From: Pedinophyceae sp. YPF-701 | Taxonomy: Eukaryota; Chlorophyta; Pedinophyceae | Length of the DNA stretch: 64,000 nt | Reading direction: 5' to 3' | NCBI GenBank assembly: GCA_916048055.1 | Contig: CAJZHL010000017.1 | Coordinates: 434,001-498,000 of the forward strand | Shown: positions 1 through 49,700 of the stretch, piece after piece | Position numbering within the stretch: the stretch's first letter is position 1 | Layout of the letters: each line of letters opens with the position of its first letter | Notes under the pieces: generated by a model | The model's input: the letters and a program-made list of their open reading frames with translations, nothing else | What the model was told of the DNA's origin: nothing | The model's database searches: none | Made by a program: the position numbers and the translations under genes

Positions 1-1415
1 TTCCCTCTGCCAGTCGAGGGCACCGAGACGCGCGTCAACGCGCAGCAGGAGGCGTACGAGTACATGGTGGGCTTCAAGGAGTCCTCGGAGCGCGTGGGGC
101 GGCGCGAGCAGGTCGTCGGGTGGTACCACAGCCACCCGGGGTACGGGTGTTGGCTGTCGGGCATCGACGTGAGCACGCAGCTGGAGCAGCAGGAGTACCA
201 GGACCCGTTCCTGGCCATCGTGGTGGACCCCGTGATGACGTCCGCGGCGGGAAAGGTCGAGATAGGGGCGTTCCGGTACGCCAGCGGCCCGGCACACGCG
301 TGCAGCAATGACTTGGTGGTCCTGCGCTGTTCGATGATTGATTTCCTTGTTTGTTTCACCGCGGTTTGTTCCTCGATGTCGTCGGGCGCTGCCCTTCCTC
401 GCGTCTGGTCGCCTCCCCGGGCTGTGGCGAGTCGACCGCGAGCCGCTAGCATCCTGGCGTGCCTTGAGTTGCGGCGCGTCAGAGGGCGCGTCGGCGGGCA
501 CCACCGCTGACGCAAGGCGCCTGCGTGCTCGCGCGATGTGCGACGACGGCGGCACGTTCTTCTTATCGTGTCGCCCGGGTTGGAGTGTCGCGAGGTCCAA
601 CACTCCAACAGCACTGGCTCGGGCGACACGACAAGAAGAACGTGCCGCCGTCGTCGCACATCGGAACACGGGCTGCGAGCGACGTTCCCCACTGCAATGT
701 CTGACTGACAAAGATAATGACTATATATGTATTTTTCGTTTCCCACTGGATCTCCTTTGGCGCACGTGGCCGCAGGACGTACCCGAAGGGCTACACGCCC
801 CCCGACGAGCCTCAGTCGGAGTACCAGTCCATTCCCCTGAGCAAGATCGAGGACTTCGGCGTCCACGCCAAGCATTACTACCCCCTGGAGGTGTCCTTCT
901 TCAAGTCCCCCCTCGACAAGCACATGCTCGAGGTGCTCTGGGGCAAGCACTGGGTGTCGACGCTCACCGCGAGCCCCGTGCTGGGCGCGGGCGGCGCGTC
1001 GAGCTTCGTCACGGCGCAGATCCGCGACGCGGCGCAGAAGGTGGAGCTGGCAGAGCAGGCCGCGGGGTCGCGCGGCGGCGTCGTGGGGCGCGGGAAGGAC
1101 GGCATGCTCGACAGGGCGGTCAAGGACGCCCGCAAGGTGCGAGCCCGCGGCTGTGCGTTGCTCTGCCGGGCGCTGCGTGCGCCTGCTGCGCGCGTGTGCG
1201 TGTGCGATCGCGCGAGAGGGACCGCGCCGAAGCCGCGGGCCGGTGTCTGGTCTGACCTGGGCTCCCACGACGTCACGTGCGAGGTTTCGTTCTGGTTTTG
1301 TGTTGCTGCGCAGATTGCGATCGAGTTCAGCAAGGCACAGAAGACGCAGGAGATCCGGCAACAGCTGTTCGGCAGCCTCCAGCCCTGCTCCGCGGGCCCC
1401 CAGGCCACGTCCTGA
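1..1415 (+). CDS. CSN5: COP9 signalosome subunit 5 (JAMM metalloprotease), 5' end cut by window
   Basis: Catalytic subunit of the COP9 signalosome, which removes NEDD8 from cullins. Exons by splice-site and frame fit are 1-275, 776-1136 and 1314-1415 (TGA stop). The frame is open at base 1, so about the first 90 residues of the usual N-terminus lie outside. The JAMM/MPN+ zinc site is complete: [14 protein letters not shown] (about 129-171) supplies the two His and the Asp of the HxH-x7-S-x2-D motif. The GAFR/TYPKGY junction across intron 1 and the C-terminal [20 protein letters not shown] helix are typical of CSN5. The second intron (177 nt) is a multiple of three without a stop, so retention would keep the frame. 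Intron 1 (276-775) holds a long hairpin, listed separately. Identification is secure; exact exon edges are inferred. Confidence 0.93.
534..663 (+). repeat. Long intronic hairpin in CSN5 intron 1 (44-bp inverted repeat)
   Basis: Bases 534-577 are the reverse complement of 620-663 over 44 nt with a single mismatch (A565 opposite C632). Inside, 579-588 pairs with 600-609 (GTTGGAGTGT / ACACTCCAAC), leaving an 11-nt terminal loop and a 10-nt bulge on the 3' side (610-619). The whole 130-nt structure lies within the intron in sense orientation. Long near-perfect foldbacks like this resemble green-algal miRNA/siRNA precursors, or a small inverted-repeat (MITE-like) element. The inverted repeat is directly visible; function is unproven. 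Confidence 0.9.
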
Positions 1416-13871: not shown

Positions 13872-15497
13872 ATGACGCTCGCTGAGCCGCGCGCTATACC
13901 GGCGCGCGAGGGCCCGACGCTCGAGCTCTGCACCGTCGCGGTCGCAGACGTGAGGCCGCAGCAGGCTGGCGCGCTCATGCGGCGCCTGAGTGCGTGCGTC
14001 CCTCTTCCCTCGCTCGCGCACCTGAAGCGCGTGAGGAAGAGTTCCGACGGCGCATCCGTCTCCATCATTCTCTGTGAGCTCGCAGCGTCCACAGGCGCGC
14101 GCGGAGATGACGGCGCAGGCGGCCTGACCGTGGACGCCACTCCAGAGCCTGCACTGCAGCCGCGGGACCTGCCCGGTGGCGCTCAGGACGCACTGCGCGA
14201 CCTCGAGCTGATGGGCCTGTCCCGCCGCCGGGTCCCGCGGCTCGCGCCCGCCGACAAGGACCAGCTGCGGCGGTGGTGCGAGGTCTGGCCGACTGCGTGG
14301 AGGAAACCTGAGTCGAGTTTCGACCTTTTGGCGGAAAAGGTCCGCGCCCTTCTCCGAGCACGGCCGCAGCGATGCAGCCATGGCAGCAGCAGCCGTCCCG
14401 CCTCCTGAGCGCTCGTCCACGCCCGCACTTGGCCATCGAAGTCTCGAGTTGAACGTTTCCAGATAGACAGGACATGTAGTGAAGGGCGGGAAGGAGGGGT
14501 AGATGTTGTGCACGTGTTGAGATGTGGCTCAACCGTCTCCGGTTCTGGCCCGTCCCGCTCCATTCAGCCACATCTCAACACGTGCACAACATCTACCCCT
14601 CCTTCCCGCCCTTCACTACATGTCTTAGATCTCTGTTCTGGCATCTCGAGGGTCTTCCTCGGCCTCATCAACGCCGGTCTTACGATCGGCGGAGCAAGTA
14701 CATCCGTGAAACTCACATGGACAAGGGCAACGACGACGGGCACGCTTCAGACGGATAGCGTCGCGTTGATCACGCGTGGCGGGGCCAGAACGGCGCGCTG
14801 TCTCCGCCCGTGGCTCGCAGATCGACGAGGTGGAGGCGGCCGTCATGCGCGCGAACATGCAGCACGCGCTCGACCGCGCCTCGGCGCCGAGCGACGGCGG
14901 AGCAGCGACGAACTCGTGCGTGATTGTGGATCCGGGCTCCGGAGAGGTCGTGGCCTCGGCGCGCGACATGCGGCACGTCCACCCGCTGCACCACGCGGTG
15001 ATCCTCGCGGTCGACGCCGTCGCGCGGGCGCAGGCGGCGGAGCGGAGCGCTGGGGCGGCGACGCAGGAGGGGGGGTGTCAACATAAAAGACGCCGTGTCG
15101 AGGCGGACGAGGGCGCCGGGGCCGCGTCGGACGGGCCGTACCTGTGCACGGGATACGACGCGTACGTCGTGCGCGAGCCCTGCGCGATGTGCGCCATGGG
15201 TGAGCGCGCGGACCTCATGTTGTGCGCCGGCACCTCTGATCACGTCTGCTGCGTGGTTTCGGACAGCATCGTCTGGTGCAATCCATCGTCGCCGCGCGGA
15301 CGGACGCGAACGCCGCTCCGTGCCCGTGCCGCCGTGTCTCCGCAGCGCTCGTGCACTCCCGGGTCAGACGGGTGGTTTTTTGCGAAGAGGACCCCGGGGG
15401 AGTGCTGCGGGGCCCCGCGAGGCTGCACGGCCGCCCGGGCATCAACCACCGCTTCAGGGTGTTCCAGGTCCCACGCCGGCAAGACCCGCCGTCCTAG
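13872..15497 (+). CDS. TAD3: tRNA-specific adenosine deaminase, non-catalytic subunit
   Basis: Partner of TAD2 in the deaminase that makes inosine at tRNA position 34. Exons 13872-14339, 14821-15199 and 15346-15497 give 332 residues. The N-terminal region has the ADAT3 features: HLKRVRK after a two-strand start, then a WCEVWPT stretch. The deaminase fold follows with HPLHHAVILAVD, where the catalytic Glu of active deaminases is Val, the hallmark of the inactive TAD3 subunit. EPCAMCAM supplies the two zinc Cys and is split by intron 2, followed by ALVHSRVRRVVF. An insertion rich in Lys, Arg and Glu lies between the two zinc motifs. Intron 1 (14340-14820) contains a perfect 59-bp inverted repeat. 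Confidence 0.92.
14471..14624 (+). repeat. Perfect 59-bp inverted repeat (hairpin) in TAD3 intron 1
   Basis: Bases 14471-14529 are an exact reverse complement of 14566-14624, separated by a 36-nt loop that itself contains a 5-bp mini-stem (AACCG...CGGTT, 14531-14544). The outer ends are GACATG and CATGTC. I see no mismatch across 59 bp. The structure lies wholly within intron 1, in sense orientation. It resembles long perfect algal small-RNA precursors or a recent inverted duplication. Similarity to the CSN5 hairpin is only in form, not in sequence. Confidence 0.95.
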
Positions 15498-29328: not shown

Positions 29329-32300
29329 ATGGAGAACGGGCACGTCGCGGGTGCTCCGCTCCCGGAGGCGAAGCAGCCGGACCCGTTCGAGAAGTCCCTC
29401 ACGACGGGCGAAGATGTCCTGCTGTGGCCCATCGATGACGTGGCGAAGAAGCCCATGAAGGTGCGCGCGGCGCGACGCGGGCGGCCCAAGCAGGCTCGCC
29501 GCACGAGGCGCCCCCTTCTCCCGTGGCCCGCACACCCGCGTCAGCGCCGCACTCGCCCTGACGCGGCGGGATCCGCTGCTGCTTCCTTCCTCGCGCGTCA
29601 AGAAACGCCGCGCGAGCGCATCCCTCAACGGTAGCGCCCAGGGTCTCCTCCGCCACTGCCATTTGCCGCGCTCGCGCGCACTGCGCCCCTGCGCGCCCCG
29701 CCGCGATCCCCCGCCCTCGCTCACGAACAGCCCCACGCGCAGGCACGCGTTTCGCGGCGCATTCCCGCCCCCGCGCGTCCCCCACCGCCTCCGCCTGCCC
29801 CACCAGGTTTCCAAATGGTTCGCCGCCGTGCGGCGCCCCGCGGCCCCCGCCCCGCGACTGCCGCGCCTCCCGCGCTGCTGGCGTCCTGTTTCACACCCGC
29901 AGCGCGCCGGACGTCCGCGCGGCCGCCCCAGCGCCCCGTTTCGGCGCCCAGCGCGTCGCCACATGTGCCGCATCGCGCGGCGTCCTGCCCGCGCCCCACG
30001 CGCGCGCCCCGCGCTCGCCAGCCCGCACGGGGCTTCCCGGCCCCGAATCTTCGCGCGTTCCGACCCCTGCGCTCCGTTTCGCCGCGCGGCATGCAGCTGG
30101 GCCCAGCGCGAGTGCAGCCGTCCTTCCCGCCGCCCGAGGACGGGCTCGTGGCGCTGCACAACGAGGCGGTGATGGCGAAGGAGGTCCTGCAGTCCCGGCG
30201 GAGGCTCCCGCCCATGGTGAACGACCAGTCGCTGTTCACGCTCGCGGCCACCTACGGCGACACCAATGACCCGTTTTACCACTCGCCGTCGACGCGCATC
30301 GGGTCCTCCCTGTCGATGCCCGCGTCGCTCGCGTCCGCAGCGCTCGTCGAGGAGTTCCCCCCGGACCCGCAGCAGCCCCAGAAGGCCGCGGGCGACCGCC
30401 AGGTGCGACGCAGGCCCCGCCTCCCACCCCAACTGCGCCGCGCAGCCGCGCCGCCGCGCGCCCGCCTCGCGGCCTCTGCCCGCCCCCGCCGCCCCCACCG
30501 GCCCCGTGGCCCCCCCTCCACGCCGCCCACGCGCCCACGCGCCCGCCGTGCCGCCCGCCGCGCGCCCCCACTCCCGCTGCCCCTCCGCGCGCCCGCCGCA
30601 GTTCAAGGCGCTCCGCGACCAGCACGTGATGCGGCAGACCAAGATCAACGCCATGGGGGGCACCACCCCCGGCACGCTCCACCTCACCGTCGGCCCCAAC
30701 GGCCTCCAGGACGCCGAGCCCGACCACCTCGTCATGGGCATCACGCTCCCGGGCGGCCGCGGGCCCGACGGGACCGTCCGCGGCATCGTCGTCGACTGGG
30801 GCCGCTCCGTGGAGATGGACCCGTGCGTCACGCTGCCCAAGGACATCAGCCCGGAGGAGAAGGAGGTGATCGCCGACGCCATCCTGCGGTACTGGTACTA
30901 CGTCGAGTACGGCGTGCCGGACCGCCACGTGGCGCCGTACCGCGAGGAGTGGGCCGCGAACGCGCTGGCGATGGTTCCGCAGCAGGCCCCGGCGAGCCTC
31001 CCCGAGGAGCGGTACTTTGCGCTGATCGAGGGGTCGCTGCAGGAGATCCACCGGGACTACGTGCGGTCGGCGTCGCGGAGCATCGTGGACTACGTGCTGC
31101 TGTCGCCGATGGAGCGCGAGCGGCTGAACCTCCAGGCGCTCGAGCGCGTGTGGCCGGAGTATGACTTGTGGCGGCGGTGGTGGCGCGGGGTGGTGTACCG
31201 GGAGCTGGACCCGGCGTGGCACGACCACGTCGCGCGCGCGACGCACAACCTCGCCTGGTCGCTGCAGACGCTCTCGCAGAACGCCGCGGAGCTCAACGGC
31301 GTCTGGCTCAGCCAGGGGTTCTCGCAGCGCCTCCTGGTGGAGGTCAAGGCGTCGTCGTTCGTGCGGCAGTGCCCCATGGCCGTGGAGAGCTTCCGCGCGC
31401 TGCAGGTGCAGCAGTGCGAGAAGGTCAAGAGCTCCCTGTGGTCGATCTGGGTCCCGAAGACGGCCGAGATCTTCCGGCGCCTCCCGCCGGTCTTCATCAA
31501 CAACGACGCCGCGGCGTACTACCGCTCGATCGCGACGCTGCAGAGCAACCACCTCCGCGGCCTCGTGCAGGCCAGCCTCGACGCGTTCGTCGCCTTCTTC
31601 CAGGCGCACAAGCGCACCGAGGAGGTCGACCCGCACGGCGACACGCTGATGTGGGCGCAGCCCGCGGCGTTCCACCTCGAGATGGTGCACGAGCCGACGG
31701 CGGGGATCGCGTTCCAGCCGGCGCGCGCGGACTTCAAGGACCAGCTGAACAGCATCATCGAGAGCGTGGTCAACGCGGTGATCGGCATCCCGCGCGCCGA
31801 GTCGATCAACCAGGTGGTGGGGTCGACGACGGGCATCGCGGACGTGGCGTCGGGGAGCCAGATGGTGCCGTGCATGCGGCTGGAGGAGGACCCTGTCGCG
31901 GAGGCGCGCCAGGCGGTGATGCGCGCCATCGACGACCACTTCGTCGCGCCGACCGAGCTCGCGGCGATGTTCGCGCCGTACGAGTTCCTGCTGTCGATCG
32001 ACGCCGGGGAGTACGCGGCCGCGTTCCAGGACAAGGACCCGTCGCTGGAGCAGTACGCCGAGGAGCTCGACCGCTTCCTGGGTGCGGCCGCGGCGGTCGA
32101 GGCGGCGTGCATGGGCAGCGTGCGGCTGGGCATGTTCGAGGTCTCGACGCACGGCATCAAGGCGGCGATGGTCGGCAAGGCGCGCGAGGTCGTCGCGCAG
32201 CTGCTGGACCAGATCCGCGCCGCCACCTTCGACTCGAACCAGCTCATCTGCGACACCTTCCAGGAGATGATGCAGGAGTTCTCCAAGGTCTCGAAGTCCG

Positions 32301-35300
32301 GCGAGGAGGTCCTGGCGCTGAAGAAGTACATTCAGAAGCGCACGGTCGACCAGGACAAGCTGCGCGACGACATTGCCTTCAACAAGGAGCGCGCGGAGTT
32401 CCTGGAGCGGTACCGCTTCGCGACGCCGGACGACGACTTCGCGCTCGCGATCCGCGCGTACGAGTGGCCGCGGCGCATGGTGGACATCCTCAAGGAGGCG
32501 GTCCAGAAGGCCAACAGCGAGCAGCGCGTGTTCGAGGACGAGCTCAAGAAGCAGCGCGCGGAGTTCCTCGAGCGCCTCGCGGAGTTCGAGGAGCAGGTCG
32601 AGGCGTTCGAGACGTACGGGGAGCTGGTGAAGCGCGACCAGCTGGCCGGGCAGGCGCAGGAGCTGATGGTGAAGCTGCGCGAGGCGCAGACGGTCGGCGA
32701 GGAGATCAACGCGCAGGAGCGCATGTTCAGCTGGGCGATGACGAAGTTCGCGGCGATCCCGCAGATGGTCGCGAAGCTGGACCCCTTTTTGTCGCTGTGG
32801 TCGACCACCGCCGAGTTCTACAACCGGTACCACGTCTGGATGAACGGGCCCTTCGCGAAGCTCGACCCCGAGCAGGTCGAGTCCGGCATCACGGAGGCGT
32901 ACCGGAAGATCTACAAGCTGTCGAAGGTGTTCGCGGGGTCGGGCGGGCAGACGCCGGAGCTGCCGGAGCCCCTCAAGGTGGCCGAGACGGTGAAGCAGCG
33001 CATCGAGGAGTTCAAGGGGTACCTCCCGCTGCTCTCCGCGATCTGCAACCCGGGCCTGCGCGACCGCCACTGGGCGTCGATCGCGAGCGTGCTGGGCTTC
33101 GAGGTGAAGCGCGACGAGGTGACGTCGCTCAAGCGGCTGCTCGACCAGGACGTCGGCGCGCACGTCGAGGGCATCGCGGCCATCTCGGACAACGCGTCGC
33201 GCGAGTGGTCGATCGAGAAGCAGCTCGACAAGATGCTGTCGGACTGGGAGGGGCTCTCGTTCGAGCTGGGCGAGTGGAAGGACACGGGGACCTACATCCT
33301 CAAGGGCGGGCCGGTCGACGAGGCGCAGACGCTGCTGGACGACCACATCGTGAAGACGCAGGCGATGTCGGCGTCGCCGTTCGCCGCGCCGTTCAAGCAG
33401 CGCCTCGGGCCGTGGGAGCGCAAGCTGGAGCGGCTGCAGAGCATCCTGGACGACTGGCTCAAGTGCCAGGGGCGGTGGCTGTACCTCGAGCCGATCTTCG
33501 GGTCGGAGGAGATCGTGCGGCAGATCCCGCGCGAGGGCACGGCCTTCCGGGAGATGGACGCCACGTGGCGGCGCACGATGCAGCGGGTGCGCGAGAGCCC
33601 CGCGGTGCTGAGCGTCGCGGACTTCGACAACCTGCTCGAGGACCTGACGCAGGCGAACGAGCAGCTGGACGTCGTGGAGAAGGGCCTGAACGACTTCTTG
33701 GAGACCAAGAAGCAGCAGTTCCCGCGCTTCTACTTTTTGTCGAACGACGAGCTGCTCGAGATCCTGTCCGAGGCCAAGGAGCCGCTCAACATCCAGAAGT
33801 TCACGAAGAAGATCTTCGAGGCCGTCAAGGAGTTCCAGTTCGAGGCCTCGGGGGACATCACCGGCATGACGAGTGTCGAGGGGGAGACGATTCCGTGGAT
33901 CGAGCCCGTGTCGCCGGCGAAGATCGGCGCGGTGGAGGCGTGGCTCCTCGAGTGCGAGAACGTCATCAAGCGCACGCTGCACAAGATCGCGCGCGACGCC
34001 ATCGAGGCCTATGCCGACACCGAGCGCTCCCGCTGGATCCTCAACTGGCCGGGGCAGCTGGTGCTCAACTGCTCCCAGGTGTACTGGACGTCCGACGTGA
34101 TGCAGGCCATCCAGAGCGCGGGCGCGGCCGGCCTCAAGGAGTACGCCGGGCAGTGCTCGGAGGAGCTCAACAAGATCGTCACCCTCGTGCGCGGCCAGCT
34201 GTCCAAGCTGGAGCGGGCGACGTGCGGCGCGCTCGTGGTCATCGACGTGCACGCGCGCGACGTCGTCGCGCAGATGGCCGAGGACGGCGTCGAGTCGGTC
34301 AAGGACTTCAAGTGGGAGGCGCAGATGCGCTACTACTGGGAGCACAACGAACACCCCCCCTCGAACGTGGACCCGACGGACACGATCGTCGTGCGCATGA
34401 TCAACGCGGAGGCGCTGTACGGCTACGAGTACCTCGGCAACTCGTCCCGCCTCGTCATCACGCCGCTGACGGACCGCTGCTACCGCACGCTCATGGGCGC
34501 CATCCACATGAACCTCGGCGGGGCGCCCGCGGGGCCCGCGGGGACGGGGAAGACGGAGACGACGAAGGACCTGTCGAAGGCGCTCGCGATCCAGTGCGTG
34601 GTGTTCAACTGCTCGGACGGCCTCGACTACAAGGCCATGGGCAAGTTCTTCAAGGGGCTGGCGTGCAGCGGCGCGTGGGCGTGCTTCGACGAGTTCAACC
34701 GCATCGAGCTCGAGGTGCTCAGCGTCGTCGCGCAGCAGGTCCTGACGATCCAGCGCGCCAAGGCCGTGCGCGCCAAGACGTTTGTCTTCGAGGGGACGGA
34801 GCTGAAGCTGGTGATGACGAACAACGTCTTCATCACGATGAACCCGGGGTACGCCGGGCGGTCGGAGCTCCCGGACAACCTCAAGGCGCTGTTCCGCGAC
34901 GTGGCGATGATGGTGCCGGACTACGCCATGATCGCCGAAATCATCCTGTACTCGTACGGGTACCTGGACGCGCGCGCCATGGCGCGGAAGCTCGTGCAGA
35001 CGTACCGGCTGTGCTCCGAGCAGCTCTCGAGCCAGTTCCACTACGACTACGGCATGCGCGCCGTCATTGCCGTGCTGCGCGCGGCGGGCAACCTCAAGCG
35101 CAAGTACGGCGACCAGGCCGAGGACGTGCTCATGCTGCGGGCGATCACCGACGTCAACCTGCCCAAGTTCCTCGACCAGGACGTGCCGCTCTTCGAGGGC
35201 ATCGTGTCGGACCTGTTCCCCGGCGTGGCGCTGCCGGAGATCGACTACAGCGACCTGCTGGCCGCGCTGCGGGAGAACAGCGTGAAGCGCAACCTGCAGC

Positions 35301-38300
35301 CGCTGGACAACTTCTTCACGAAGACGATCCAGCTGTACGAGATGATCATCGTCCGCCACGGCCTCATGCTGGTGGGGGAGTCGTACGGCATGAAGACGTG
35401 CTCGTACCAGGTGCTCGCCGCGGCGCTCGAGCAGCTGCACCAGAAGGGCCTGATGGGCGAGAACCCCGTGAAGACGTACGTGGTGAACCCGAAGAGCATC
35501 ACCATGGGGCAGCTGTACGGGCAGGAGGACGCCGTGTCCAAGGAGTGGACGGACGGCATCCTGGCGGTCAACTTCCGCAACGCCGCGCGCGACGAGTCGA
35601 ACGACCGCAAGTGGGTCATCCTGGACGGCCCCGTCGACGCGGTGTGGATCGAGAACATGAACACGGTGCTCGACGACAACAAGAAGCTCTGCCTCAACTC
35701 GGGCGAGATCATCGCCATGAACGCGCAGATGAACATGATCTTCGAGGTCGAGGACCTCAGCCAGGCGTCCCCGGCCACGGTCTCGCGCTGCGGCATGGTG
35801 TACATGCAGGCGCGCCTGCTCGGGTGGAAGCCCATCCTGCAGTCGTGGATCGACCAGCTGCCCGAGCAGATCGCGCCGGAGATCAAGGAGCAGATCCAGG
35901 CGCTCTTCGCGTGGCTCCTGCCCCCGATGCTGCGCGTGGCGACCAAGGAGGTCCGCCGGCCGGTGCCGATGCAGGACATCAACCTGGCGTCGTCGTGCAT
36001 GAGCCTCCTCGAGTGCCTCCTGGACGACTTCGCGCACAACCCGGAGGTGATGAGCATGAACATGAACCTCCAGGCGGTGTGGGTGCAGTCGCTGATGCTG
36101 TTCTCGCTCGTGTGGTCGGTCGGCGGGTGCACGGACGAGGAGGGCCGCTCGCGGTTCGACCAGGTCCTCCGGCGGCTCCTCGTGAACGACCCCCCGGCGG
36201 ACATCAAGCCGTACATGGAGGCGCCGGCGGTGCCGATCACGCAGGTCTACCCCGAGGGGCGGCTGGTGTACGACTTTGTGTTTGACAAGGCCAAGGCGAA
36301 GTGGGTGCCGTGGATGGACATCGTGGACTCCGGCCCGCTCGACGTCGAGCAGGAATACAACTCGATCATCGTGAAGACGCAGGACACCGTGCGCTACGGG
36401 TACCTGATCAGCCTGGCGGTGGCGCACTCGAAGCACATGCTGTACGTCGGGCCGACGGGGACGGGCAAGACGGCGTACATCAACCGCTTCTTGCAGACCG
36501 ACATGGACCTGAGTCAGTTCACGTGGAACCTGGTCAACTTCAGCGCGCAGACGTCGTGCAACATGACGCAGGACATGATCGACGCGCGCCTCGACCGCCC
36601 GCGCGGCCGCAAGGGCAAGAAGACCTACGCGCCGCCCAACGGCAAGAAGATGGTGGTCTTCGTCGACGACCTGAACATGCCGAAGAGGGAGATCTACGGC
36701 GCGCAGCCGCCCATCGAGCTGCTGCGGCAGTGGATGGACCACGGCGGGTGGTACGACCGCAAGGAGTACCACTTCCGGCACATCGCGGACATCCAGTTCG
36801 TGTCCGCGATGGGCCCGCCGGGCGGCGGGCGCAACAGCGTGACCAACCGGTACCTGCGCCACTTCCACGTGGTGTCGCTCACGCCGTTCGACCTCGACAC
36901 GAACTACCTGATCTTCTCGTCGCTGCTCGACTGGTTCTTCCGCAAGTACGAGTACGACCAGGCCTTCACGAAGCACCTCCGCGGCATCGTCATGTCCTCG
37001 ATCGACCTCTTCAAGACGGTGCAGCAGGAGCTCCTGCCGACGCCGACCAAGTCGCACTACACCTTCAACCTGCGCGACCTGTGCAAGGTCTTCCAGGGCA
37101 TCTCCGTCGCCGACAAGGCCGTGCAGGACCCCGCGCAGCTCGTGCGGCTGTGGTGCCACGAGATGCTGCGCGTGTTCTACGACCGTCTGGTGGCGGAGGA
37201 GGAGCGCGACTGGCTGCTCGACAAGATCGAGGCGGTCGCGGAGAAGCAGTTCAAGGAGAAGTTCAGCAAGCTGGCGGCGTCGCCGCACATGCGCGAGACC
37301 AAGGTCACGATGCGCGGGCTCAAGAGCAACATGTTCGGCGACTACATGGTCCCCGGCGCGGCCACGAAGCAGTACTCCGAGGTCCCCTCCATGGAGGCCT
37401 TCCTCAAGGTCGCCCAGGAGTACCTCAACGACTTCAACGCCACGTCCAAGAAGCCCATGCAGCTCGTGCTCTTCGACTTCGCGCTGGAGCACGTGTCGCG
37501 GATCTGCCGCATCATCAAGCAGCCCGGCGGGCACGCGCTGCTGGTCGGCATGGGCGGGTCCGGCCGGCAGTCGCTCACCCGGCTGGCGGCGTTCGTGGAG
37601 GAGTTCGAGGTGTATCAGATTGAGATCTCGAAGACGTACGGGATGGCGGACTGGTCGGACGACCTGCGCACGGTGCTGAAGATGGCGGGGGAGCAGAACA
37701 AGCCCGTGGTGTTCCTCTTCGCGGACACGCAGATCAAGGACGAGACGTTTGTGGAGAACATCTCGAACCTGATCAACACGTACGAGGTGCCCAACCTGCT
37801 GGGGTCCGGCGACATGGTGACGATCTACGAGAACATCAAGGGGCGCGCGAAGGCCGCGGGCCGCGACGGCAACCTGCACCAGTTCTTCCTGGACGAGCTG
37901 CGGCGCAACCTGCACGTGGTGCTGTCGTTCTCGCCCGTGGGCGACGCCTTCCGCGAGCGCCTGCGCAAGTTCCCGTCGCTGATCAACTGCACGACGTGCG
38001 ACTGGTTCACGCGCTGGCCCGAGCAGGCGCTCGCGTCCGTGGCGCAGGCCAACCTGCGCGACGTGGTGGGCATCGAGGACGACATGAAGGAGCACCTGCC
38101 GGCCATCTGCGTGCTGTTCCACAACTCGATGCACCAGATGACGGAGCGCTTCCTCGCCGAGCAGCGCCGGTACAACTACGTGACGCCCACGTCGTACCTG
38201 GAGCTGCTCGCGTCATACAAGGAGCTGCTGGGGCGCAAGCAGCAGGAGATCTCGACGATCAAGCGGCGGTACGAGGTCGGGCTGGACAAGCTCGAGGCCA

Positions 38301-41300
38301 CGGAGGCGTCCGTGGCGGGCATGCAGGAGGAGCTCATCGCGTTGCAGCCGCAGCTCGACGCGGCGGTGGTGGAGACGGACGCGGCGATGGAGGTGATCGC
38401 GAAGGAGAGCGAGGAGGCGGCCAAGGTCAAGGCGGTGGTCGAGGTGGACGAGGCGGCCGCGAGCAAGGAGGCCGCGGACGTGCAGGCCATCAAGGACGAC
38501 TGCCAGCGAGACCTCGACCGGGCGATGCCGCTGGTGTACGAGGCGCTCAAGGCGCTCGACACGCTCACGAAGAACGACATCACGGAGGTCAAGGGCATGA
38601 AGAGTCCGCCCGCGGGCGTCAAGCTCGTCATGGAGGCGGTGTGCATCCTCAAGGGCGTCAAGCCCAGCCGCATCAAGGACCCGAACAGCGGGAAGATGGT
38701 CGACGACTACTGGGACGCGGCGAAGAAGATGCTGAACGACTTCGCCTTCCTGGACTCGCTCAAGACGTACGACAAGGACAACATCCCCCCCAAGGTCATC
38801 GAGGGGATCAAGCCCTACCTGGAGCGGGACGAGTTCGACCCGGAGAAGATCAAGTCGGTCTCGAAGGCCGCGTTCGGGCTGTGCTGCTGGGTGCGCGCGA
38901 TGGGCGCGTACGACGAGGCCATGAAGGTCGTGCGGCCGAAGCAGGAGGCGCTGCACGAGGCCGAGTCCAAGCTGGGGACGGTCATGCAGGCGCTCGAGGG
39001 GAAGCGCGCGGAGCTCAAGGAGGTCATGGACAAGCTCGCGGCGCTCGACGCGGACCTGCAGGAGAAGAAGTCGCGCAAGGAGAAGCTCGAGCACGACGTG
39101 CACATGTGCACGGTGAAGCTGGACCGCGCGCAGAAGCTGATCGAGGGGCTGGGCGGCGAGAAGACGCGCTGGACGGCCGCGGCGGAGCGTCTCGGCGCGC
39201 AGCTGGAGCAGCTGGTCGGCGACGTGCTGCTCAGCGCCGGGCAGATCGCCTACCTGGGGCCCTTCACGTACCCCTACCGCAGCGCGGCGCTGCAGGAGTG
39301 GACCAAGGCGTGCAACGAGTACGCGGTGCCGTGCTCGGACCACTTCACGCTCTTGAACTGCCTGGGCGACCAGGTCAAGATCCGGCAGTGGAACATCCAG
39401 GGGCTGCCGCGCGACGACTTCTCGTCGGAGAACGCCATCAAGCTGGACCAGGGGCGCCGCTGGCCGCTGTGCATCGACCCGCAGGGGCTGGCCAACCGCT
39501 GGATCCGCAACATGGAGGAGGCGCGCAACATCAACGTCATCAAGCTCACGGACGCCAACTTCCTGCGCACCCTGGAGAACAGCATCCCGCTCGGGACGCC
39601 CGTGCTGCTGGAGAACGTCGGGGAATCGCTCGACGCGGCGCTGGAGCCGCTGCTGCAGAAGCAGCTGTTCAAGCAGGGCGGCGCGCTGTGCATCAAGCTG
39701 GGCGACGCGGTCGTGGAGTTTGACGCGCAGTTCAAGTTCTACATCACGACCAAGCTCCGGAACCCGCACTACCCGCCGGAGCTGTGCACGAAGGTCTCGC
39801 TGCTGAACTTCGTCACGACGGCGGAGGGTCTCGAGGACCAGCTGCTGGGCATCGTGGTGGCGAAGGAGCGGCCGGACCTGGAGGAGGAGAAGTCGAAGCT
39901 CATCATCCAGGGGGCGGAGAACAAGCGGAAGCTCAAGGAGATCGAGGACAAGATCCTCAAGGTGCTGTCGAGCTCCGAGGGCAACATCCTCGAGGACGAG
40001 GAGGCGGTGGACGTGCTGCAGAGCTCCAAGGTGCTGGCGGACGACATCAGCGAGAAGCAGAAGATCGCGGACGAGACGGAGGCGAAGATCGACGACGCGC
40101 GCGTGGGGTACAAGCCCGTCGCGCGCCACTCGTCGACGCTGTACTTCTCCGTCATGGACATGGGCCACATCGACCCCATGTACCAGTACTCGCTGGGGTG
40201 GTTCGTGGGGCTCTTCCTCAAGGCCATCTCCGAGTCCAAGCAGTCGGACGAGCTCGAGGAGCGCCTGCACCACCTCAACGACCACTTCACGTTCCTGCTC
40301 TACCAGAACGTGTGCCGCTCCCTGTTCGAGAAGGACAAGCTGCTCTTTGCGCTGGTGCTGGCCACCAAGCTCGGGATCAACCAGGGCACCGTCGACCCCG
40401 AGGAGCTCCGCTTCCTCCTCACCGGCGGCGTCGCCGTCGGCGACCTGGACGCGCCGAACCCCGCGCCGGGCTGGCTCTCGGACAAGTCGTGGGGCGAGAT
40501 GCACCGCGCGTCCACCACGCTGTCCGACGCCTTCAAGCCGCTCGCGGACCACGTCGCCGCGCACACCGCGCAGTGGGAGACCATCTACCTGTCGTCCGAG
40601 CCGCAGAACGAGGCCCTGCCGGAGCCGTTCTGCGCGTCGCTGACTCAGTTCCAGCAGCTCATCGTCCTGCGCACCGTGCGGCAGGACAAGCTCATCCCCG
40701 CGATCACCAAGTACGTCGCGGCCGCGCTCGGGCCGCGCTTCGTCGAGCCGATGCCGTTCGCGATCGAGCCGTCGTTCAACGACTCGAGCCCCACCATGCC
40801 GCTGGTGTTTGTCCTGTCGCCCGGGTCGGACCCGATGGCGGCGCTGCTGAAGTTCGCGGACGACCGCGGCATCCGCGTCGAGGCGGTCAGCCTCGGGCAG
40901 GGCCAGGGCCCCGTCGCGCAGCAGTGGATCGAGACGGGCATGAAGGAGGGCCTGTGGGTGGTGCTGCAGAACTGCCACCTGGCCAAGTCCTTCCTGCCGA
41001 CGCTGGAGCTCATCTGCGAGCAGCAGCTCGTGCCCGGGCGCGTGCACCGCGACTTCCGGCTGTGGCTCACGTCGTACCCGACGCCGATCTTCCCGATCAG
41101 CGTGCTGGAGAACTCGGTCAAGATGACGAACGAGCCGCCCAAGGGGCTCGCGGCGGGGCTGCTGCGGACCTACATGATGGACCCCTTCTGCGAGCACGAG
41201 TTCTTCGCGGGGTGCCAGAAGGACGCGCCGTTCCGCAAGCTCATGTTCGGCCTGGCCTTCTTCCACAGCGTGATTTACGAGCGGAAGAAGTTCGGGCCGA

Positions 41301-42583
41301 TCGGGTGGAACATCCCGTACGAGTTCAACGAGAACGACCTGCGCATCAGCATCCGGCAGCTGCGCATGTTCCTCGACGAGTACGCCGAGATCCCGTACGA
41401 CACCCTGCAGTACACGTGCGGCGAGTGCAACTACGGCGGGAAGGTCACGGACGGGCTCGACCGGCGCACGCTGATGACCATCCTCGACGACTTCTACACG
41501 CCGAAGATCCTCGAGGACACGTACAAGCTGTCGCCGTCGGGCACGTACTTTGCGCCGCCGTACGGCGACTACAACTCCTACCTGGAGTACATCCGGAAGC
41601 TCCCGCTCATCGCGTCGCCGGAGGTGTTCGGCCTGCACGAGAACGCGGACATCACGAAGGACCTCCAGGAGGTCGGGCTGCTGCTGAACAGCATGATGCT
41701 GACGCAGTCGCGCTCGACGAGCGGCGGGGGGAAGTCGGCGGAGGACATCATCGCCGAGGTGTCGGCGGGGATCCTCGCGCAGCTCCCGCCGGACTTCGAC
41801 CTCGAGAAGGTGCAGCGGAAGTACCCGCAGGCCTACGACAACAGCATGAACACCGTGCTCGTGCAGGAGCTCGAGCGGTGCAACCGGCTGCTGTCCGTGA
41901 TCCGCTCGATGCTGGTCAACCTCGGGAAGGCCGTCAAGGGCCTCGCGCTCATGAGCCCCGAGCTGGACGAGGTCGGCACGGCGCTGTATGTCGGCAAGGT
42001 GCCCGCGGTGTGGCTCAAGCACTCGTTCCCGAGCCTCAAGCCGCTGGGGCCGTACATCAAGGAGCTGCTCGACCGGTGCAAGTTCTTCCAGGACTGGATC
42101 GACCACGGGGCGCCCAAGGTGTTCTGGATCTCCGGGTTCTTCTTCACCCAGGCCTTCCTCACGGGGTCGAAGCAGAACTTCGCGCGCAAGTTCACCATCC
42201 CGATCGACGAGGTGGACTTCGACTTCGAGGTGATGGACCGCCCCGGGGACTGCGAGGAGCCCCCCGCGGACGGCGTCTACTGCGACGGGCTGTTCATCGA
42301 GGGCTGCCGGTGGGAGTTTGACAAGCACGTGCTGGCGGACTCGGAGCCCAAGGTGCTGTTCTCGAAGATGCCCATCATCTGGATGGTGCCGAAGAAGGTG
42401 ACGGACTTCAAGAAGTACCAGCACTTCGAGGCGCCGCTGTACAAGACCACGGAGCGGCGCGGGGTGCTGTCGACAACGGGCCACTCGACCAACTTCGTCA
42501 TGACCGTGCGCCTCCCGAGCGAGCACGACGCGTCCTTCTGGATCAAGCGCGGCGTGGCGCTCATGACCTCTCTCAACGACTAG
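29329..42583 (+). CDS. Axonemal inner-arm dynein heavy chain (DNAH3/7/12 type)
   Basis: Motor subunit of a flagellar inner-arm dynein. Exons 29329-29460, 30097-30402 and 30602-42583 give 4139 residues; the third exon is 11,982 bases without interruption. AAA1 near residue 1456 has GPAGTGKTETTKDL and Walker B ACFDEFNRIE. AAA2 near 1736 reads GESYGMKT, lacking the second Gly of Walker A. AAA3 near 2096 is GPTGTGKTAY with MVVFVDDLNMP. AAA4 near 2462 is GMGGSGRQSLTRLAAF, the usual Arg variant. The coiled-coil stalk and microtubule-binding tip lie at about 2685-3000. The C-terminus (NIPYEFNENDLRIS, TGECNYGG-like CGECNYGGKVTDG, STTGHSTNFVM) and short tail fit the single-headed DNAH3/7/12 clade. The first two exons rest on splice sites and frame. 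Confidence 0.95.
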
Positions 42584-46764: not shown

Positions 46765-49700
46765 TTACAGCTTCGCGGCCTCGGCAACCTCCGAGGCAAA
46801 GTCCTGCGTCTTCTTCTCGATGCCCTCGCCGAGGTTGTACTTGGTGAAGCGGCGCAGGACGATGTTCTCGCCGATCTCCGCGGTCGCGCCCTTGAGGACC
46901 TCCTCGACCGTCTTGTTCGTGTCCTTGATGTAGGCCTGGTTCAGCAGACACTTCTCGCCCAGCAGCTTCGCGACGCGGCCCTCGACGATCTTCGCGCGGA
47001 TGTCCTCCGGCTTGCTCTGGAGGTCCTCCTTGCCCATCTCGATCTCCTTCTCGCGCGCCTGCACCTCCGCGGGGATCTCGTCCACCGAGACGTACTCGAT
47101 GTCGGGGCACGCCGCGATCTGCATCGCCATGTCCGCCGCCAGCTCCTTGAACTTGTCGCCGCGCGCCACAAAGTCCGTCTCGCAGTTCAGCTCCGCGAGG
47201 ACGCCCAGGCGCGACCCGGCGTGGATGTACGTCACCACGAGGCCCTCGGCGGCCGCGCGGCCAGCCTTCTTGCCCGCCGACGCCAGGCCCTTCTTGCGCA
47301 GGTACTCGGAGGCCTTCTCGATGTCGTTGTCGCACTGCGCGAGCGCCTTCTTGCAGTCCATCATGCCGGCGCCGGACATCTCGCGGAGCTCCTTGACGGC
47401 CTTGGCCGACACCTGCACCGCGGGCTTCTCCTCCTCCTTGGGCGCCTCCTCCTTGGGCGCCTCGTCCTTCTTCTTCTCCGCGGCCTCCTTCATCGCCGCC
47501 GTCTGCTCCGCGATGTCCGCGCCCAGGTCCGAGGCCTTCTTCTCGATGCCCTCGCCGAGGTTGTACTTCTCAAAGCGGCGGATGCGGATGTTCTCGCCGA
47601 TCTCCGCGATCGACGACTTGATCAGCTCCTCGACCGTCATGTTGGTGTCCTTGATGTAGGCCTGGTTCAGCAGGCACTTCTCGCCCAGCAGCTTCGCGAC
47701 GCGGCCCTCGACGATCTTCTCCCGGATGTTCTCCGGCTTGCTCTGGAGGTCCTCCTTGCCCATCTCGATCTCCTTCTCGCGCGCCTGCACCTCCGCGGGG
47801 ATCTCGTCCACGGACACGAACTCGATGTCCGGGCACGCCGCGATCTGCATCGCCACGTCCGCCGCCAGCTCCTTGAACTTGTCGCCGCGCGCCACAAAGT
47901 CCGTCTCGCAGTTGAGCTCCACCATGACGCCCAGGCGCGACCCGGCGTGGATGTACGACGAGATCAGGCCCTCCGCGGCCACGCGGCCGGCCTTCTTGCC
48001 CGCCGACGCCAGCCCCTTCTTGCGCAGGTACTCGGAGGCCTTCTCAATGTCGCCGTCGCACTCCGACAGCGCCTTCTTGCAGTCCATCATGCCGGCGCCG
48101 GACATCTCGCGGAGCTCCTTGACGGCCTTGGCCGAGATGCCGCCGGCGGCAGCCGCCGTGGCCTTCTTCTGCAGCGACACGGGCGCGGAACGCGTCAGCG
48201 ATGGTCCCGCGCAGGCTGTGCACTCGCAGCGCGGCTCGCGCAGCACGGGCGGCCTGAGACCACGCGCCACGCGCGCTGCGCCGCTGCGGACCCCCTCGGA
48301 GTATATATTACACGTCGTGTCGGGTCCATGCAGGGCGGCGGGCGCAGTCGAGGCGGATCAACTCACCTCTGGCGCAGGCGGCGCAGGCGCGGCCTCGGCG
48401 GCGGGCGCGGGCGCAGCCTCGGCGGCGGGCGCGGGCGCGGCCTTCTCCGCGGGCGCGGCGTCCTCCTCGACGGGCCGCGACGGGAACATGTCGGGCGCGA
48501 TGCCCATGGCGCGCAGCGCGTACTCGAGCGCCGTCTGCACCTCCGACGGGTCGACCTCGGCGGCGCGCGACTTGAACGGCTGGCGCTCCTCCTCGGTCTT
48601 CTGCGTGAGGCTCACGCGCTGCCCGTCGACCTTGATCACGCGCACCTCCACCTCCTCGCCCTCCTTGAACATGGTGGCCAGGCGGGGCTCGAGCTCCGTG
48701 GACTTGACCTCGGACTGGTGGAGGAGGCCCTCGAAGCCCTCGGCGACGGTGACGAAGACGCCGAACGGCGCGACGCGCGCGACCGTGCCCTGGATGACGT
48801 CGCCCTTCTTGACGGGGGCGTCGCGCTTGGGCGCGTCGCGCTTCGGGGCGCGGCGGGCGACCTTGCCGGTGCGCTGCGCGCGGCCGGACTCGCCCTCGAC
48901 GACGGGGGACTTCATGGAGAGCGCGAACTTCTTGCCCTCGATCTTGATCACGCGCACCTCGACCTCCTGCCCCTCCTTGATAAACTCGGTGATGTCCGAC
49001 ACGAAGTCGTTCGACATCTCGCTGATGTGCAGCAGGCCGTCGCCGCCCTCCGCGTTGATGTCGACGAACGCGCCGTACGACTGGACGCCCTTCTGCGGGC
49101 CGGGGGCGCCGGGGCGGGCCGGGGTGGGGCGAGGCGGCGCGGGGAGCGCGGCGGCGGGCGGGCGGGGGGGCGGAGGGGCGGTGGGGGCGAGGGCGAGGAG
49201 CGGGGGAGGTGGGGGCGGGGGGAGGGGCGCGCGGGGGCGCGGGGGCGACGGCGTGGCGCGGGGAGCGGGGCCGGTCGTGGGAGGCCAAGGCAGGTGTGTG
49301 GAGGAGGCGCGCGACGCGTCTAGGTGGCGTGATGAGGGTTTTGACGCGGCGCGAAGGGGTACCGGGGACTGAGAGAAGGCGGTCCGGGGCAGGTGCGGAC
49401 TGTTCGTGCCCGAGACTGGTCGGAAAAGCGGGTGAGGCTGTGGCAGATGTACGAGGCGGATCGCGGGCGCGTGGGGGCGGTGCGGGGGGGTTCGAACGCA
49501 CCACTTTGCCCTTGTAAGTGTTTCCGACCACGAGGTCCGAAATGGGGATCTTGTCCGACGACGAGGCGCCCTCGGACGACGCCTCGGCTCCAGGCTCGGC
49601 CTCGACAGCGGCGGCACGGACTCGGTTGAGCGACGCGCGGCGCTGGGCGTGGGCATCGCGACGAATGCTGCATTGGCACAACGACGTCGCGCGCGGTCGA

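Follow-up and report, generated by a model that had tools for sequence, protein, structure and literature searches.

A perfect 59-bp inverted repeat in a TAD3-like intron of Pedinophyceae sp. YPF-701, probably a young fold-back duplication, and four other intronic hairpins

The window, by which we mean the whole 64,000-nucleotide stretch of Pedinophyceae sp. YPF-701 DNA that was analysed, has a GC content near 70% and belongs to an assembly of 27.9 Mb. On its forward strand lies a TAD3/ADAT3-like gene whose first intron is predicted to contain a long hairpin (Table 1). Because the spliced protein aligns through the junction that joins 14339 to 14821, with the solved ADAT3/TAD3 protein (7nz7 chain B, E 4e-35) as the counterpart, this predicted GT...AG intron is founded on homology. 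Exon 2 alone scores 25.0 bits against the Pfam deaminase cut-off of 25, and the longer frame scores 23.4. The intron extends for 131 nt and 196 nt on the two sides of the hairpin, and the homology across the junction supports the original prediction that the hairpin lies wholly inside a spliced intron on the sense strand. Neither known RNA families (at gathering score) nor tRNA genes were found in the window.

Table 1. Coordinates of the hairpins, their host introns and the RNAi-related loci. Positions refer to the window unless a locus or contig is named.
Feature	Position	Strand	Details
TAD3/ADAT3-like exon 1	13872..14339	+	homology
TAD3 intron 1, predicted hairpin host	14340..14820	+	481 nt; AAG/GTCCGC ... 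CGCAG/ATCG, phase 0; homology of spliced product
TAD3 hairpin, left arm	14471..14529	+	59 nt, perfect inverted repeat
TAD3 hairpin, loop	14530..14565	+	36 nt
TAD3 hairpin, right arm	14566..14624	+	exact reverse complement of left arm
TAD3/ADAT3-like exon 2, deaminase domain	14821..15199	+	homology
TAD3 intron 2	15200-15345	+	146 nt
TAD3/ADAT3-like exon 3	15346..15497	+	homology
CSN5 intron with second hairpin	276..775	+	500 nt; homology and splice sites
Second hairpin, left arm	534..577	+	44 nt, 1 mismatch, X-family sequence
Second hairpin, right arm	620..663	+	44 nt
Hairpin L027	C11		arms 165 nt, 99.4%; loop 35 nt; intron of NTH1/endonuclease III-like gene
Hairpin L029	C13		arms 73 and 26 nt; intron of KLHDC4-like gene
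Hairpin L039/L040	C9		arms 88 and 55 nt; intron of diacylglycerol-kinase-like (DGK-like) gene
RNAi-gene loci on C4	L019:5703-7894 and L020:4657-6868		Dicer-like RNase III pair and Argonaute

The two arms of the TAD3 hairpin are complementary at 59 of 59 positions, exactly as had been read from the letters. Folded as RNA, positions 14441-14650 reach -148.8 kcal/mol, whereas shuffled versions average -62.1 (z -21.7) and none of the 200 was as good. An inverted-repeat scan of 281,156 bases from 25 sources, one of which (L002) is contained in another (L020), gave top scores of 162, 64, 59, 41 and 26, the 59 being the TAD3 hairpin, followed by a next score of 18; the best score in three order-2 Markov copies of the scanned set was 19. 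The earlier judgement that such a stem is far beyond chance holds on both measures. The scores of 162, 64 and 26 belong to L027 and L029, two loci that were chosen through their match to the window's second hairpin, and no inverted repeat scored above 18 in the 193,202 bases outside the window, L027 and L029 (L002 being omitted as well).

The stem stops abruptly at 59 bp. An ungapped extension to 73 nt at 92% identity, together with the RNA fold, hinted at a longer, decayed stem; this was rejected, since the flanks are at background level. Of 5000 random places, 29-68% equalled the flank similarity over 20 to 100 nt, as did 10-46% of 2000 shuffles, the similarity over 30 nt being the one that only 10% of shuffles equalled. 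The GC content of the arm (0.54) is near that of the neighbouring intron stretches (0.58 and 0.62), so composition by itself is no sign of foreign origin.

The hairpin appears to be single-copy. When the 154-nt hairpin and a 501-nt intron stretch were compared with the 27.9-Mb assembly, the best candidates, which were those scored, comprised only the locus itself and its own inverted arm. The two 24-mers at the arm ends, which together cover 48 of the 59 nt, matched both TAD3 arms and no other site genome-wide at up to three mismatches; the middle 11 nt of the arm were covered by the DNA search only. Exact searches for the 59-mer of the arm in genome contigs and for an arm 21-mer in viral contigs returned zero matches, and the search of plasmids gave 10 records at chance level (best E 0.4). 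The original prediction had proposed this genome search on the grounds that many copies with target-site duplications would mean an element and a single related gene a target or an origin; it returned neither, and the arm was traced to no single-copy source in the assembly.

Introners can carry inverted repeats, and the inverted-repeat form and intronic place of the TAD3 hairpin would suit a MITE, a foldback transposon or an introner. Such an element is nevertheless already largely refuted and is the least credible of the readings considered here. The searches turned up no second copy, and no target-site duplication was found: the longest word common to the two flanks is 4 nt, which 55% of random places match, and a duplication beyond chance was seen at none of the five hairpins described in this study. 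The 131 and 196 nt of flanking intron have no further copy in the genome, so the intron itself is not the element. The TAD3 case is like such introners in having an inverted repeat within an intron, and differs from those of PMC9860276 in its single copy, in intron flanks without other copies and in the lack of a target-site duplication. Of the two alternatives to a small-RNA gene that the original prediction had offered, the MITE is not supported, and a recent inverted duplication agrees with arms that differ at 0 of 59 positions, with abrupt ends and with the absence of a second copy from the searches.

The window holds a second hairpin (534-663), in an intron of a CSN5 gene whose spliced product aligns without gaps to solved CSN5 (E 8e-80), and this hairpin has relatives at three places, on C11, C13 and C9. 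Around the L027 hairpin, the NTH1-like join has homology support (E 1e-16). The host of the L029 hairpin, which we take to be KLHDC4-like, apparently has a GC-AG intron (L029:5043-5408, minus strand), picked among several frame-keeping GC sites, and the DGK-like host of L039/L040 was assigned from a domain match and a predicted splice join. All five of the long hairpins examined are intronic. The TAD3 hairpin shows no sequence relation to the others in blastn, and what it has in common with them is intronic place and form, not sequence.

Arm divergence in ungapped segments is 0/59 for the TAD3 hairpin, 1/44 for the CSN5 hairpin, 1/165 for L027, 3/73 with 0/26 for L029 and 2/88 with 3/55 for L039/L040, as expected of events of unequal age. 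Over all five hairpins, 10 of 510 arm pairs in these segments are mismatched, and one of the 10 would be a G:U pair on the host sense strand, the counts being small. Nothing in the arm mismatches points to selection for pairing. The original prediction had held that the TAD3 stem must be young or selected; youth is favoured by the absence of arm differences, and selection is disfavoured by sister-hairpin mismatches that lack a pairing bias.

All four sister hairpins hold pieces of one coding-like sequence, which we call X. DNA searches with three of the four hairpins and searches with two protein pieces found X at these four places only, on both strands; because it lies on both strands at each place, X is present as inverted repeats, and as a target element, too, it was found solely in this form. 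No lone X gene was found in the genome among the best candidates, which were those scored, so a diverged lone copy could escape. The breakpoints of X vary from locus to locus. Ten ungapped matches between loci, which overlap and cannot be treated as independent, contain 78 differences, of which 62 concern the third codon position, 10 the first and 6 the second. Synonymous and non-synonymous codons stand at 6:1, 8:4, 3:1, 4:0 and 3:1 in X stretches picked by motif, a choice that biases toward synonymous change. The third-position excess would mean that X was once a functional gene that has been sampled several times, and together with the unlike breakpoints it suggests independent captures; X is probably a former functional gene captured more than once. 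Searches of X against Pfam, NCBIfam and PHROGs gave nothing over the cut-off (best Sigma70_r2, E 0.018, and an NCBIfam model, E 0.08), and PDB gave no match. Fifteen pattern matches in viral contigs yielded no confirmed case, and the single match in phages was at chance level (E 0.1). As judged from these searches, the broader result is that four intronic hairpins are built from a gene family not otherwise found in the genome. Among the matches listed for literature on intronic hairpins, template switching and EVE hairpins, nothing in the portions of text available resembled the X set.

L027 carries a trace of how it may have formed. At L027:5127-5204, the loop and the arm tip match the 5S rRNA genes of the same genome (Rfam RF00001), and the DNA search with L027 also matched four 5S genes through this 5S part. 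On the minus strand of L027, X is followed by 5S from about nucleotide 1 to about nucleotide 62. In the 5S gene, a short inverted repeat (ACGGCG/CGCCGT, 35 nt apart) borders the L027 loop where the arms begin; past CGCCGT, the hairpin sequence no longer follows 5S but runs back along its own arm. Self-priming at a short inverted repeat would be expected to produce this layout. The joining of X to the 5S 5′ end may reflect an RNA-templated step or an insertion at the Pol III start site. Two loci on C29 (L035 and L036) each have a 5S rRNA gene and a tRNA gene that point the same way and lie 2 nt apart.

By analogy with L027, where the 5S piece exposes the fold-back point, we infer that the TAD3 hairpin is a young inverted duplication that arose in intron 1 by fold-back, that is, template switching, and we give this reading a probability of about 0.6. 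Either the 3′ end of a DNA strand or a copied RNA would have folded back over about 36 nt and been extended on its own strand, leaving an exact reverse complement, after which synthesis or repair would have rejoined the TAD3 intron. The exact reverse-complement arms, the short spacer and the abrupt ends of the TAD3 hairpin are those of a fold-back product. A short priming inverted repeat was observed for the sister L027 against 5S; for the TAD3 arm no source was found. We deduce both the direction of the change and the points of switching from the present structure in this one genome.

Template switching is described as a source of perfect hairpins by Monttinen and Loytynoja (PMC8794818). The TAD3 hairpin resembles the template-switch-born RNA hairpins of that study in its perfect stem, short loop, sharp ends and lack of an element signature; it differs in that its stem is long and in that the event is deduced from a single genome, and the sequence of the sister hairpins has no source at their own sites. 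A difficulty for the fold-back reading is that the searches gave no single-copy source of the arm, although local template switching should copy adjacent sequence: either that source has been replaced, or the arm came from outside. Moreover, a mutational process blind to position would account for the intronic place of all five hairpins only if those arising in exons are purged. The hairpin set fits a picture in which foreign sequence was captured repeatedly by fold-back, possibly as an RNAi memory.

The genome appears equipped to process such stems. A profile search identified on contig C4 an Argonaute with PAZ, ArgoL1 and Piwi domains, in which the catalytic residues D, D and H are present as judged by eye. 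Some 7 kb from it, neighbouring frames encode a pair of RNase III domains belonging to a Dicer-like gene; together the two genes form a possible RNAi gene cluster. Two further frames beside the RNase III domains contained no Dicer helicase, PAZ or other Pfam domain, and a host RdRP (PF05183) gave no match in a search whose control was equally silent. Given the Argonaute and RNase III domains, a dsRNA of 59 bp could probably be diced. If transcribed, the hairpin in the TAD3 pre-mRNA is a likely Dicer substrate and a possible small-RNA precursor. We infer that transcription of the TAD3 pre-mRNA would copy the stem into 59 bp of perfect dsRNA, which a Dicer-like enzyme could process into siRNAs either ahead of splicing or independently of it.

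Those same RNAi domains would serve a hairpin-siRNA defence locus, in which an intronic inverted copy of a piece of an invader, a virus or transposon, gives rise to siRNAs that silence that invader, as proposed for Mu killer in maize. The sharing of X by the four other hairpins, its occurrence only as inverted repeats, and the third-position differences and unlike breakpoints that suggest independent captures all speak for this reading. The TAD3 arm, however, matches neither X nor, above chance, anything else searched, X itself matches no family and nothing above chance in viral contigs or phages, the mismatches show no G:U bias, and the frames beside the RNase III domains gave neither Dicer helicase nor PAZ. 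We regard a defence locus as unlikely, though it is the foremost of the alternatives. Mu killer is an inverted duplication of mudrA, and its siRNA model is debated in PMC3440606. The X hairpins are like it in being inverted copies of a coding-like fragment for which transcription with the host gene is proposed, and differ in being far shorter and in that searches of the genome gave no separate X gene as a target. A bolder and more doubtful version would make the hairpins in housekeeping-gene introns a heritable RNAi memory, consisting of independent fold-back copies of the RNA or DNA of otherwise absent invaders, which would be transcribed together with the host gene and then diced. The X-5S join in L027 would then be an RNA-templated step, in which a viral or retroelement polymerase jumped from X to 5S and snapped back, and the most recent entry would be the TAD3 hairpin, directed against an invader not yet known.

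An intronic miRNA gene that yields a single, precisely defined guide strand directed at a host mRNA is improbable. Its prerequisites, Dicer-like and Argonaute domains, are present in the host, the TAD3 foldback is strong, and in Chlamydomonas many miRNAs derive from introns, nine high-confidence miRNAs being intronic according to PMC4817775. The Chlamydomonas miRNA/siRNA precursors described there are likewise stem-loops in introns of coding genes; the TAD3 stem differs in being perfect and is known here from DNA alone. A perfect 59-bp stem would be expected to yield several siRNA duplexes, not one miRNA, and, as neither outer 24-mer of the arm matches any further genomic site at up to three mismatches, there is no near-perfect host target for those 48 of 59 nt. 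Less probable again is an inverted chimera produced in the library or the assembly. Amplification and single-molecule reads are both known to generate inverted chimeras, but here two joins would be required, since beyond the second arm the sequence resumes the TAD3 intron and then the exon, and five structures that are all intronic, with arm divergence from 0 to several percent, are unlike library chimeras.

As mere fold-back scars, the hairpins would show the birth and decay of long perfect stems, from which small-RNA genes can be built, and in L027 the 5S rRNA piece would mark the point at which one such event folded back. Were they maintained for defence, they would parallel EVE-based piRNA memory and Mu killer, as captured self-complementary pieces of an invader otherwise not found in the genome.

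Two further features of the window were observed. Positions 46780-47805 hold two 300-nt copies, 89% alike, within an ORF with a repeated EF-Ts domain and UBA/TS-N domains, and positions 30221-42580 form an open frame of 4120 codons with a strong GC excess at third positions.
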